The position numbers were made by a program, and so were the translations under genes. Source: Holdemania sp. Marseille-P2844 (GTDB lineage: Bacteria > Bacillota_I > Bacilli_A > Erysipelotrichales > Erysipelotrichaceae). Taken from it: a stretch of 64,000 bases of DNA. Positions within the stretch are counted from its first letter, which is position 1, and the number at the start of each line of letters is the position of its first letter. Positions 418-42,696 of this stretch are shown piece by piece. The stretch is from the NCBI RefSeq assembly GCF_900120005.1, contig NZ_LT635449.1, forward strand, positions 1 through 64,000, written 5' to 3'. The notes under the pieces were generated by a model. That model made no database searches. It was not told the DNA's origin and worked only from the letters and a program-made list of their open reading frames with translations.

Positions 418-2403
418 TTATTTTAAATGCGACTGCATCCAGTCGGTGATCTCGTTCAATCTTCTCATCCGGTGTAGCGGTTTGCCGGACCGGCTCAGTT
501 CATGATTTTCACCCTTGAAATACACGAGCTTGGACTCGACGCCCAGATCGACCAGAGCGGTATACATCTGCAAGCCTTCCGCCATCGGACAGCGGTAATC
601 TTCATCAGAATGGATAAACAGCGTCGGCGTCGTGCAGGCACGCGCATACTTAACTGGGGAATGCCACCACAGCTTTTCCGTATCGTCGTAGATATTGCCG
701 CCCTGCTGGTCTGGTCCGAAGGTCATGCCGATATCGGAAACGCCGTAGAACGAAATCCAGTTGGCGATGCTGCGCTGGGAGGCCGCGGCCGCAAAGCGCG
801 AGGTATGGCCGATGATCCAGTTGGTCATGAATCCGCCGTAGCTGCCGCCGGTTACGCCGACACGCTGCGCGTCGATCGCCGGATACTGCTTGAGCACCGC
901 ATCCGTGAAATCCATGATGTTGTTGTAATCGCAGGTGCCGTATTTGCCGCGCAGATCCGCGAATTCATTATCGCGGCCGTCGGAGCCGATCGGGTTGCAG
1001 AAGAAGACAAAATAGCCTTCGTTCGCCCAGACCTGCATCTCATGATAGAAGACCTCGCCATACACTGTCTTCGGTCCGCCATGGATATCCAGGATTGCCG
1101 GATAGCGCTTCGTTTCATCATAATCCTTCGGCAGCAGCACCCAGCCGTTGATCGTCGTGCCTTCCGACTCGACGCTTAACCGCTGCGGAACCGCGACATA
1201 TTTATTCGTTAACACCGCTTCGTTGAAATCGGAAATCTGGGTGGTCGTCTTAGTCTCCGGATCATACTCATAGATTTCCTGCAGCTTCTGCCCCAGCATG
1301 CCCGCAAACAGAATCTTACCGTCGGCCAGCGCGAAATGATCGACAGAGCCTGTCAGCTCGATCACCGGCTGAATGCAGCCGCAGGCGCCCATCTTATACA
1401 AATGCGAGCTGTCCTCGCGCGTCGTCAAGAAATACAGCGCTTTTTCATCCGCCGCAAAACCGCAGCCGCCGCCATAACGGCAGTCGGAGCCGACCGAGGA
1501 GCCCATACTGTACTCGTACGGCGCCCACAGCGTCACCTCATGGCTCACCGGATCAAGCTTATAAAGATACGGATTTTCGTTATTGCCATGGCGGGTTGTC
1601 GTCGCAGCCGCCAGCACGATGGCCTCACCGAAAAACGCGGCTTCGTGAATCGAATATTCTTTTTTATCATAAACACATTCCGTCGTCCTGGTTTTGACGT
1701 CATACAGATAGACGGAAGCCTTGCGCTGCGGACGGCTTGTGTATTCCTCGCCGGTATACAGCACCTTGCCCTCCTTCACGTCGACGTCGCCGGTCATAAA
1801 CAGCGGCGCGGTGATCGGCGTGCAGGTCTTCGCCTTCGCATCGACGACATACAACGTATTCCGCAGCTTGTTCGTGAATCCGCCGCCGTTGGACCAGAAC
1901 GGAATTTCATCGAAAACTTCATAATCAACGTTGTCTTTCTTCGCCTTCAAAACCTGTTCGCGCTGTTCTTCGCTCATCGCCGCAAAATCGCCGATTCCGG
2001 CATCCGTGCGGGCTTTGATCAGATACAGATCCACGTCCAGCTTCCAGATCCCGATCGCCTTTAACGGTACCGTAAAGGCCTTGACCGCTTCCCCACCCGT
2101 TAACGAAATCCGGTAATACGCGGTATACGGCTCGCCGGCTTCCGCCTTCTTCTTGTCCTGGCTGTCACGGCTGGCCGCAAACAGGATTGTCGTCTCATCA
2201 TCAAAGATAAAGCTGCTTTCCTTATCCATCGCCGTCAGCTGCGCAAATCCCTGATCCTTGCGGACCCAGATGTTGCTTGTGTAGCCGTTGTTCTTCGGAT
2301 CCGCCTGCCAGACCGTCACAGCCGCCGCCGTTTTTTCCGGCGATACAGTCAGATTGGATAAAAAGCGGTAGTTGTAAAATTCATCACGTTGAAGTTTGTC
2401 CAT
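418..2403 (-). CDS. S9-family serine peptidase (acylaminoacyl/dipeptidyl peptidase type)
   Basis: A 661-residue cytosolic prolyl-oligopeptidase-family enzyme that should trim short peptides or acylated N-termini. The first 400 or so residues resemble the beta-propeller gate. The C-terminal alpha/beta-hydrolase domain carries the nucleophile motif GGSYGG (Ser about 521), an Asp in HSDEDYRCP (about 602) and the catalytic His in GENHE (about 634). There is no signal peptide. It is the last gene of a three-gene operon, starting 3 nt after pepP, so it probably works with aminopeptidase P in proline-rich peptide breakdown. The exact substrate class within S9 cannot be told from sequence. Confidence 0.9.
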   Translation of the reverse strand: MDKLQRDEFYNYRFLSNLTVSPEKTAAAVTVWQADPKNNGYTSNIWVRKDQGFAQLTAMDKESSFIFDDETTILFAASRDSQDKKKAEAGEPYTAYYRISLTGGEAVKAFTVPLKAIGIWKLDVDLYLIKARTDAGIGDFAAMSEEQREQVLKAKKDNVDYEVFDEIPFWSNGGGFTNKLRNTLYVVDAKAKTCTPITAPLFMTGDVDVKEGKVLYTGEEYTSRPQRKASVYLYDVKTRTTECVYDKKEYSIHEAAFFGEAIVLAAATTTRHGNNENPYLYKLDPVSHEVTLWAPYEYSMGSSVGSDCRYGGGCGFAADEKALYFLTTREDSSHLYKMGACGCIQPVIELTGSVDHFALADGKILFAGMLGQKLQEIYEYDPETKTTTQISDFNEAVLTNKYVAVPQRLSVESEGTTINGWVLLPKDYDETKRYPAILDIHGGPKTVYGEVFYHEMQVWANEGYFVFFCNPIGSDGRDNEFADLRGKYGTCDYNNIMDFTDAVLKQYPAIDAQRVGVTGGSYGGFMTNWIIGHTSRFAAAASQRSIANWISFYGVSDIGMTFGPDQQGGNIYDDTEKLWWHSPVKYARACTTPTLFIHSDEDYRCPMAEGLQMYTALVDLGVESKLVYFKGENHELSRSGKPLHRMRRLNEITDWMQSHLK

Positions 2404-39703: not shown

Positions 39704-39725
39704 AAAAAAGCCGCTTCCCGCGGCT
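39704..39725 (-). terminator. Terminator of the lysine-riboswitch operon
   Basis: A six-pair GC-rich stem (39709-39714 with 39720-39725) followed on the minus strand by six T residues, 70 nt past the M20 amidohydrolase stop. Confidence 0.8.
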
Positions 39726-39794: not shown

Positions 39795-40979
39795 TTACAG
39801 TCCGCCTTTTAACAGCTCCGGGTTCAGAAAAACCTGCAGCGCGCTGAAGGCCATCGCTTTAATCGCTGTGTGCAGCGAATGATCGGCGGCATGACCATGA
39901 ACATAGTCCAGAAAATCTTCGTTGTGCGCATACACCGGCGGACAAGCGTCGGTTTCAATTTCGCAATACACCGTCGGACAAACATGCGAGACATTGCCGA
40001 TATCGGTCGAGCCGGAGGCTTCGTTGGACTGCGGCACAAAATGAGTCACGCCCAGCGCTTCCAGATTTTCCTTCAACAGCTTCCGTAACGGCTCGCTGTA
40101 AACCAGATCGTCATACGAGTTCTCAAAGTTATGATAAGCTAACGACGCACCCGTCATCAGCGCCGCGCCCTTGGCACAGTTGATGATCCGCTGTGTCAAT
40201 TCTTCCAGATAAGCGCGGGATTTCGCCCGGATATAGAACTGACAGGACGCGCTTTCCGGCACAATGTTGGCGGCCGCTCCGCCGTTGGTTACAATCCCAT
40301 GCACCCTTGCGTCGCTCTGCATGTGCTGGCGCAGGGCGTTGATCCCGGCAAACGTGAGCTGGACAGCATCCAGAGCATTGATGCCTAAATGCGGATATGC
40401 CGCGGCGTGCGCCGCTTTCCCGGTGAAGTCAAACTGCAGGGAATCCATCGCCAGCGACACGACATGAATGTTGTTTTCCGCGCCTAAATGCATCTGAAAT
40501 GCCGCGTCAATATCGTCAAAGCAGCCCGCGTCAACCAGGTCGCACTTGCCGCCCAGCGTTTCTTCCGCCGGCGTTCCGATCAAAACGATTGTACCGCTGA
40601 ATTCTTCGCTGATCTGCGCCAGCAAGACAGCTGCGCCCAGCGTTGAAGCTGCGATCCAGTTATGACCGCAGGCATGGGCGTTCTGGTTATGCTCAGGGCC
40701 ATAGCCCGGCAGCGCGTCATATTCCGCCAAGAAAGCAATTTTCGGACCATCGCCGCAGTTCAGCTCAGCGCGAAACGCCGTTGCCAGACCGCCGTAAGGC
40801 TGCGTAACCGCAAAACCATAGCCGCGCATTTTTTCACACAAATACTGCGACGACCAGACCTCATCACACCCCAGTTCCGGATGGGCGTAGATTTCATCGC
40901 GGACCCTTTCAAACTGTTCAGCCATTTCCGCTTCCCGCGCAAACAGCGCCTCGCGCAGCGTCGCCAAGTTCTTTTCCAT
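39795..40979 (-). CDS. M20-family amidohydrolase (peptidase M20D, AbgB/hippurate-hydrolase type)
   Basis: A 394-residue zinc hydrolase that cleaves N-acyl or peptide amide bonds. Metal-site motifs: FLAEYDALPG near 84, HACGHNWI near 103, the catalytic Glu in GTPAEETLGGK near 135, and the metal His in FQMHLG near 160; a dimerisation domain lies at about 195-300. It follows the YfcC-type carrier by 16 nt and is under the same lysine riboswitch. It may release lysine, or a relative, from an imported conjugate; that role is inference. Confidence 0.87.
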   Translation of the reverse strand: MEKNLATLREALFAREAEMAEQFERVRDEIYAHPELGCDEVWSSQYLCEKMRGYGFAVTQPYGGLATAFRAELNCGDGPKIAFLAEYDALPGYGPEHNQNAHACGHNWIAASTLGAAVLLAQISEEFSGTIVLIGTPAEETLGGKCDLVDAGCFDDIDAAFQMHLGAENNIHVVSLAMDSLQFDFTGKAAHAAAYPHLGINALDAVQLTFAGINALRQHMQSDARVHGIVTNGGAAANIVPESASCQFYIRAKSRAYLEELTQRIINCAKGAALMTGASLAYHNFENSYDDLVYSEPLRKLLKENLEALGVTHFVPQSNEASGSTDIGNVSHVCPTVYCEIETDACPPVYAHNEDFLDYVHGHAADHSLHTAIKAMAFSALQVFLNPELLKGGL

Positions 40980-40995
40980 CGTGATTTCCTCCCGT

Positions 40996-42390
40996 CTAGT
41001 ATCCGATCAGCACGGCGATCGTCAAGAGCACAATTTCCGCGATAAACAACAAACCGAACAACGGCGTCACAAACTTATACCACTTGTTGACGGGCAGGCC
41101 CATAATTCCGCACATCATAAAGACGGAGGTCGGCCAGAAAATATTGGAGAACCCGTCGCCGAACTGGAAAGCCAGAACTGCGATCTGCCGGCTCAAGCCG
41201 ACCATTTCAGAAACCGGCGCTAAAATCGGCATCGTGACGACCGCCTGTCCGCCGCCGGACGGAATGAAGAAGTTAATGATATTCTGCACAAACAACATGC
41301 CCATCGCGCTCGCAATGCCCTGAAACTGCGCCAAGCCGGTCGACAGCCAGTACACAATCGTGTCGATGATGTGCGCATTGTCCATGATGACCGGAATCGC
41401 CCGGCTCAGTCCGACAATCAATGCACCGAACATCATATCCTTCGCCGCTTCGATGAAATACTGCGCGATCTGACTCGGCGTAAACCGGGACACCAGACCG
41501 ATCACAAGCATCATGATGATGAACAGCGCCGCGATTTCATTGATATACCAGCCCAGCTTGATCGTGCCGATCAAAAGCATGACCACGGTGAAAATGAAGC
41601 ACAGCCCGGAAATTTTCTGCGTCAGCGTAAAATCACGCTTCATCAACTCTTCCTTGGTACCGACTTCGCGGAAATTCAGATTTTCACCGGCCAGAATTGA
41701 TTTTTCCGGATGCTTTCTGACCTTCTCCGCATAGCGCCAGACATAAATGATCGAGATGCCCATGAAAATAACAAAGCAGAAGACCCGGTAACCCAGGCCA
41801 GAAAACAGCGGAACCTGAGATACTTCCTGCGCGATGCCGATCGTGAACGGATTGATCGTCGCCGCCGCAAAGCCGACCGCGACCGCGATATAGACGATCG
41901 AACCGCCGACGATGGCGTCAAAGCCCAGCGCAATCGCAATTGAAATGAAGATCGGAAGCAGGCCGTAGGTTTCCTCAAACAGACCGATGGTTGAGCCGAG
42001 GATCCCGAAGGCGATCATGCAGATCGGAATCAACAGGTGTACGCGGTTGCCGATCTTTCGCAAAACGGCGCCGACGACCGCATCGAACGTTCCGTTTTTC
42101 AATAACATATAAACAAAGGCGTAAGCAAAGACGATGAAGAAAATAATCTGAGCACCGTCAATGAAGCCTAACTGAATCGAAGTGAAAATTTCAAACAGAC
42201 TGCAGCCGGTTTTCGGCAGGTAATGGAACGAATCGGCGACGACGACCATCTTGCCGCTGGCTTCGTCCAGGACACGGGTGAATTCCCCGGCCGGCACAAT
42301 GTTCGCCAACAGCGCGGTCAGCAGGACCATGCCGAAGATAATGACATAGGTATGGGGCATTTTGAATGATGTGGCAGTTTTCTTGCGCAT
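40996..42390 (-). CDS. YfcC-family membrane carrier under lysine control
   Basis: A 464-residue integral membrane protein with about 12 hydrophobic helices and the YfcC/C4-dicarboxylate-carrier family segments (GGQAVVTMPI near 374; FGDGFSNIFWP near 408; GLFEETYGL near 140). Family members are annotated as putative basic amino acid or dicarboxylate carriers. The 5' leader holds a lysine riboswitch, so lysine or a lysine derivative is the likely substrate. AAGGAGGAAA precedes the ATG. It is the first gene of a two-gene operon. Confidence 0.87.
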   Translation of the reverse strand: MRKKTATSFKMPHTYVIIFGMVLLTALLANIVPAGEFTRVLDEASGKMVVVADSFHYLPKTGCSLFEIFTSIQLGFIDGAQIIFFIVFAYAFVYMLLKNGTFDAVVGAVLRKIGNRVHLLIPICMIAFGILGSTIGLFEETYGLLPIFISIAIALGFDAIVGGSIVYIAVAVGFAAATINPFTIGIAQEVSQVPLFSGLGYRVFCFVIFMGISIIYVWRYAEKVRKHPEKSILAGENLNFREVGTKEELMKRDFTLTQKISGLCFIFTVVMLLIGTIKLGWYINEIAALFIIMMLVIGLVSRFTPSQIAQYFIEAAKDMMFGALIVGLSRAIPVIMDNAHIIDTIVYWLSTGLAQFQGIASAMGMLFVQNIINFFIPSGGGQAVVTMPILAPVSEMVGLSRQIAVLAFQFGDGFSNIFWPTSVFMMCGIMGLPVNKWYKFVTPLFGLLFIAEIVLLTIAVLIGY

Positions 42391-42407
42391 ACAATTTCCT
42401 CCTTAAC

Positions 42408-42442
42408 AAAAAAAATCTTTACATCCTAAAACATGTAAAGAT
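42408..42442 (-). terminator. Riboswitch expression-platform terminator
   Basis: A perfect 10-bp stem (42415-42424 with 42433-42442), an 8-nt loop and seven to eight T residues on the minus strand. It lies between the lysine aptamer and the carrier's ribosome site, so lysine binding can stop transcription. Confidence 0.88.
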
Positions 42443-42475
42443 CAATGGAAATCATCATTCATCCCTATATGCCTT

Positions 42476-42652
42476 AAGATAGTGCTCCTTTGTAAAATGG
42501 CATCTTTACAAAGACAGTGACCTACCTGTTCGATAGGTCCCCAGCCGCTTTTATGACAAAGCGACTTCGGCGGATCATCCTTTCCGGCTGACTTCTCAGG
42601 CTTTCGGCCTCCATCAGCGTACTCTTAATCTCCGCGCCTCTAGCTGTGCTTT
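42476..42652 (-). ncRNA. Lysine riboswitch (L-box) aptamer
   Basis: Read on the minus strand, the conserved core appears in order: AGAGGCGCGGAG then TTAAGAGTA, a P2-P3 segment ending in GCCGGAAAGG, CCGCCGAAG, GGCTGGGG, CACTGTC, then the P5 hairpin CTTTGTAAA...TTTACAAAG followed by GGAGCACTATCT closing P1. These match the lysine-aptamer signature in sequence and order. A terminator follows. Confidence 0.92.
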
Positions 42653-42667
42653 CACACAAGCATGTTT

Positions 42668-42696
42668 AGATTACCATATTCAATTTTACATTTCAA
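42668..42696 (-). promoter_or_regulatory. Promoter of the lysine-riboswitch operon
   Basis: On the minus strand, TTGAAA (42696-42691), a 17-nt spacer and TAATCT (42673-42668), placing the transcript start just before the aptamer. Confidence 0.65.

Follow-up and report, generated by a model that had tools for sequence, protein, structure and literature searches.

In Holdemania sp. Marseille-P2844, a lysine riboswitch, a YfcC-type carrier gene, and a gene for an M20 amidohydrolase form one unit in the window (the whole 64,000-nucleotide stretch of DNA analyzed here). With moderate confidence, we read this unit as a lysine-scavenging system under an OFF switch, which would import an X-lysine amide, cleave it to lysine, and be expressed when lysine is short. 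The observation from which the analysis began was confirmed. Its interpretation, uptake of an acyl- or peptidyl-lysine that is then cleaved inside the cell, is partly supported: the suggestion of a lysine amide survives, and the subfamily of the M20 enzyme makes an X-lysine dipeptide likelier than a generic N-acyl-lysine. The aptamer, terminator, gene order, family placements, and absence of lysA were established computationally. The direction of switching, the substrate, and the direction of transport are what we infer.

Locus layout and riboswitch

The unit runs from aptamer to terminator, ribosome-binding site and ATG, carrier, and M20 gene, with 16 nt separating the two genes (Table 1). 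Since the terminator of the upstream tetR lies on one side and a closing hairpin with a T6 run, the likely transcript end, on the other, the unit is probably transcribed on its own, in agreement with the original prediction that carrier and enzyme are transcribed together. The promoter with a 17-nt spacer proposed there fared less well. The sequence does contain it, yet the element is weak: it agrees with the consensus at 8 of 12 positions, and a promoter scan with a threshold of 9/12 does not list it. Elsewhere in the window, the L21 gene is preceded by a ribosomal protein L21 leader (38427-38353, minus strand), which is nothing unusual.

Table 1. Features of the riboswitch-carrier-M20 unit and its borders, in window coordinates.
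Feature	Position	Strand	Evidence
Terminator of upstream tetR	42738-42716	minus	separates tetR from the riboswitch unit
Weak sigma-70-like promoter, TTGAAA-17-TAATCT	42696-42668	minus	read in sequence
Lysine riboswitch aptamer, RF00168	42650-42472	minus	cmscan 100.7 bits, E 1.3e-25
Predicted antiterminator helix	42481-42422	minus	minimum-free-energy fold of leader
Intrinsic terminator of riboswitch	42442-42407	minus	arms 42442-42433 and 42424-42415, then T run
YfcC/DcuC-family carrier, 464 aa	42390-40996	minus	PF03606 5.4e-80; NF008611 289.7 bits
M20D hydrolase, HmrA/PM20D2 type, 394 aa	40979-39795	minus	TIGR01891 251 bits, tree, structure match
Hairpin AGCCGC-GGGAA-GCGGCT, then T6	39725-39700	minus	sequence; hairpin 39709-39725 in plus-strand scan listing

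The aptamer covers the full RF00168 model (1-182) with its core motifs intact, and its score of 100.7 bits, where the gathering score is 30 bits, bears out the lysine aptamer originally noted upstream of the carrier. The transcription terminator is also present: upstream of the start codon, the aptamer is followed by an 11-bp hairpin (GATCTTTACAT-GTTTTAGG-ATGTAAAGATT) with a T run. The minimum-free-energy (MFE) structure of the leader (-81.8 kcal/mol) is a predicted antiterminator in which 42481-42469 pairs with 42434-42422 and 42467-42461 with 42442-42436; it sequesters the 5' arm of the terminator along with 5 nt from the 3' strand of P1. When the terminator is forced, the energy becomes -76.3 kcal/mol. 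Antiterminator and P1 are mutually exclusive in leader folding, and the expression platform is coupled to P1 through this predicted overlap, with the terminator downstream. Lysine holding P1 would favor the terminator, so the folding energies predict an OFF switch. Intrinsic terminators likewise lie between aptamer and gene in the other yfcC leaders examined. In six of these the ligand-free MFE structure is already the terminator form, which limits the folding argument to Holdemania, L074, and L079.

A different antiterminator, in which the P5 strand TGTAAAGAT (42510-42502) pairs with the terminator 5' arm, was rejected: despite a perfect 9-bp match, it is ~17 kcal/mol worse than the P1-proximal form and shows zero ensemble pairing.

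Other riboswitch arrangements were seen elsewhere. The aptamer 3' end GTGGAGxGCTATCATT is repeated after the first terminator in the yfcC leaders of L003 (1656-1860), L037 (1200-1400), L039 (1156-1365), and L176 (1228-1370, reverse); another terminator follows the repeat in the first three, so that a single aptamer is followed by two copies of the expression platform. Lysine riboswitches also lie ~400-460 nt upstream of ORFs starting at about 2070-2130 (plus strand) in L011, L012, L016, L019, and L027. By eye, these ORFs resemble the beta-keto-acid (3-keto-5-aminohexanoate) cleavage enzyme of lysine fermentation, and such a gene would suggest an ON switch at those loci.

Carrier, M20 enzyme, and their recurrence

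The carrier gene encodes a YfcC-type protein, as first described. It matches PF03606 (DcuC) with an E-value of 5.4e-80 (269.6 bits; threshold 23.1), and its top NCBIfam match is YfcC (NF008611). Since the latter score of 289.7 bits is under the cut-off of 500, the protein is a relative and not itself an E. coli-type YfcC. Its closest match among the named genomes is the YfcC of Holdemania filiformis DSM 12042 (99%). The predicted structure (pLDDT 86) has an ion-transporter-superfamily fold and is most similar to MleN (9a59, Z 24.9), followed by LaINDY (Z 24.7) and YdaH of the AbgT family (Z 22.4); these matches do not fix a substrate.

The tie to lysine that the riboswitch gives this carrier is strengthened by its recurrence. 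In a set of 247 genomes from the class, the riboswitch lies immediately before each of the seven top-scoring YfcC matches, and the count reaches 14 riboswitch-yfcC loci once named genomes and a second class (393 genomes) are added. The scan used Rfam or a model built from the yfcC-linked aptamers; it found no riboswitch directly before yfcC in the remaining loci of the 113-row YfcC tree, a result that does not extend to L097, L141, L152, L091, and L089, whose upstream sequence is short. On this tree, the 14 loci fall into three lineages, namely Erysipelotrichaceae with Oscillospiraceae, family f13 with G716, and G847. As a single clade is rejected (p-AU 3e-5), the riboswitch was either recruited or lost more than once.

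Pairing with the enzyme is similarly frequent. An M20 gene is adjacent in 12 of the 13 informative riboswitch-yfcC loci (L075 ends at a contig end and was left out of the count), and YfcC-M20 pairs are also common in loci lacking the riboswitch. Locus L187 (G847) has the riboswitch and yfcC with no adjacent M20 gene; the carrier can therefore be lysine-linked without the enzyme. Two further loci have riboswitches in other positions. In Sporosarcina cyprini, a YfcC-M20 pair of the other M20 type is followed at a distance of 1.3 kb by a lysine riboswitch (L093 7875-8059, plus strand), and in G012 two c-di-GMP-I riboswitches (L045 656-730 and 1332-1406, minus strand) lie near a YfcC-family gene.

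The M20 amidohydrolase assignment was upheld by matches to PF01546 and TIGR01891 (251 bits; threshold 153.75). The metal-binding and catalytic residues (Cys104, His106, Glu139, Glu140, His164, His191, His352) are intact and are invariant in a 32-sequence alignment. In a tree of 78 M20 proteins, a branch with 100/100 support divides the family into two halves, one with AbgA, YxeP, ILL2, AgaA, and 4ewt and the other with HmrA and PM20D2. The Holdemania enzyme is placed in the second half, as are all 12 riboswitch-linked M20 proteins (0 in the first). As the loci are related, these are not 12 independent events; two lineages carry the M20 gene. In contrast, yfcC genes without the riboswitch have M20 partners from either half of the tree.

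Human PM20D2 is matched at 1.8e-56, and the predicted structure (pLDDT 95) superimposes on it with a Z-score of 50.0 and 1.7 A over 376 residues; after HmrA and PM20D2, the next kind of structure match drops to Z 38.5. PM20D2 hydrolyzes dipeptides whose C-terminal residue is basic, and a 2014 study reportedly identified it as a beta-alanyl-lysine dipeptidase. Two of the PM20D2 structures carry a mutation at Tyr314; at the aligned position, 8 of 10 riboswitch-linked M20 proteins have Tyr, compared with 5 of 22 others. A search for residues distinguishing the riboswitch-linked enzymes returned 12 positions. None of them is decisive as to a basic substrate, and the 35% identity to PM20D2 is too low to fix the substrate.

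Lysine supply and proposed function

A search for lysA, which succeeded in 13 of 14 control genomes, did not find the gene in the genome of the window (completeness 96.6%) or in H. filiformis. On this gene alone, both are predicted to be lysine auxotrophs. Among the other riboswitch-yfcC genomes, lysA is above the cut-off in six (G072, G011, G043, G034, G023, G454) and was not found in G455, a Pygmaiobacter MAG, or in G061, an incomplete genome. The genome of the window contains two lysine riboswitches. The second (contig 17, 308206-308036; L032 12207-12037, minus strand) directly precedes a gene for an SBP_bac_5 (family-5, oligopeptide-type) solute-binding lipoprotein (L032 11997-10327, minus strand), which starts ~40 nt after the aptamer.

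We propose the following mechanism. At low intracellular lysine, the antiterminator would form in the leader from the P1 3' strand and the terminator 5' arm, and both genes would be transcribed. Bound lysine would hold P1, allowing the terminator to form and halting transcription before yfcC. The carrier, as an ion-transporter-superfamily member, would import an amide that contains lysine. The likeliest candidate is an X-Lys dipeptide, for instance beta-alanyl-lysine, or some other conjugate with C-terminal lysine, from which the M20 enzyme would release free lysine in the cytoplasm. In favor of scavenging we count the aptamer, terminator, and gene order, the folding of the leader, the absence of lysA, the peptide-binding lipoprotein behind the only other lysine riboswitch, the recurrence in three lineages, the placement and structure match of the enzyme with HmrA and PM20D2, the Tyr aligned to Tyr314, and the AbgT-like fold of the carrier. 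Against it we count L187, the lack of this Tyr in HmrA (the bacterial relative with a solved structure that is nearest), the modest identity to PM20D2, the six terminator-form leaders, and the genome completeness.

The main competing explanation, which we consider possible though doubtful, is import of lysine itself by the carrier, or an exchange of basic amino acids, with the M20 enzyme as a separate peptidase that releases lysine from peptides taken up by other routes, for example through the riboswitch-linked peptide-binding protein. This would fit L187 and the second riboswitch, as well as the NCBI name of the YfcC family, "putative basic amino acid antiporter". In addition, the lysine-riboswitch carrier LysW belongs to the NhaC group, and the top structure match here, MleN, is an NhaC-family protein. 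However, the frequent adjacency of YfcC and M20 genes, with and without the riboswitch, points to one shared substrate.

Two other readings are unlikely. The enzyme could be a biosynthetic N-acetyl-diaminopimelate deacetylase (YkuR/DapL type) repressed by the riboswitch together with biosynthesis, given that lysine riboswitches often control dap genes, that an "amidohydrolase" occurs in such operons in Thermotoga, and that the genome has a dapB homologue. We regard this as very improbable: lysA is missing in two Holdemania genomes, the enzyme is cotranscribed with a carrier rather than dap genes, and in the M20D tree it is well separated from the YxeP-like half, where YkuR presumably belongs. 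Equally little credence is given to an ON switch driving export or catabolism of excess lysine, a reading with a parallel in the keto-acid-cleavage-like genes behind lysine riboswitches of other Bacilli, but opposed by the OFF-type terminator/antiterminator layout and the little need for lysine export in a genome without lysA.

Lysine scavenging thus remains our preferred function for the unit. More tentatively, riboswitch-linked YfcC-type carriers in general may import lysine dipeptides or amides and pair with a beta-alanyl-lysine-type dipeptidase, providing dedicated scavenging for gut lysine auxotrophs. YfcC carriers have no settled substrate, and their recurrence behind lysine riboswitches with a dipeptidase-type partner narrows the candidates to a few purchasable compounds. 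If the proposal is true, this orphan carrier family would gain a substrate, and there would be a hint of how gut bacteria that do not make lysine obtain it.

Relation to known systems

Lysine-riboswitch-controlled transport is already known for LysW/NhaC, LysP, and YvsH, which belong to other carrier families and have no linked peptidase; YfcC is absent from the carrier table of the same study (PMC5584792). For the enzyme, Staphylococcus HmrA (3ram) is the best match in both sequence (1.4e-66) and structure (Z 50.8). It differs in having no Tyr at the Tyr314-aligned position and is not known to be lysine-regulated. Human PM20D2, a cytosolic beta-alanyl-lysine dipeptidase (7yh4, 8zel), shares the M20D subfamily, the catalytic residues, and 35% identity (Z 50), but unlike the Holdemania enzyme has no link to a carrier or riboswitch. 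A parallel in plan is p-aminobenzoyl-glutamate uptake and cleavage by AbgT with AbgA/AbgB, where AbgT imports an acyl-amino acid that its M20 partners cleave. Here too, a carrier of the same superfamily and M20 amidases share one operon, although AbgA belongs to the opposite M20D half and AbgT is only distantly similar to the Holdemania carrier by sequence.

The arrangement itself is not new, because C. difficile CD3100-3099 is listed in a 2024 review (PMC11477304) as a lysine riboswitch, yfcC, and an M20D amidohydrolase. By that listing, the three parts, their families, and their gene order are as in Holdemania, which is a further case; the entry comes without a substrate, M20 subfamily, or mechanism. 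What is added here is that the riboswitch recurs before yfcC in separate lineages, that the enzyme can be assigned to a subfamily, and that auxotrophy is predicted; none of these points was found in the open-licence literature searched. If the scavenging function is true, the matching C. difficile operon would likewise acquire a candidate substrate.
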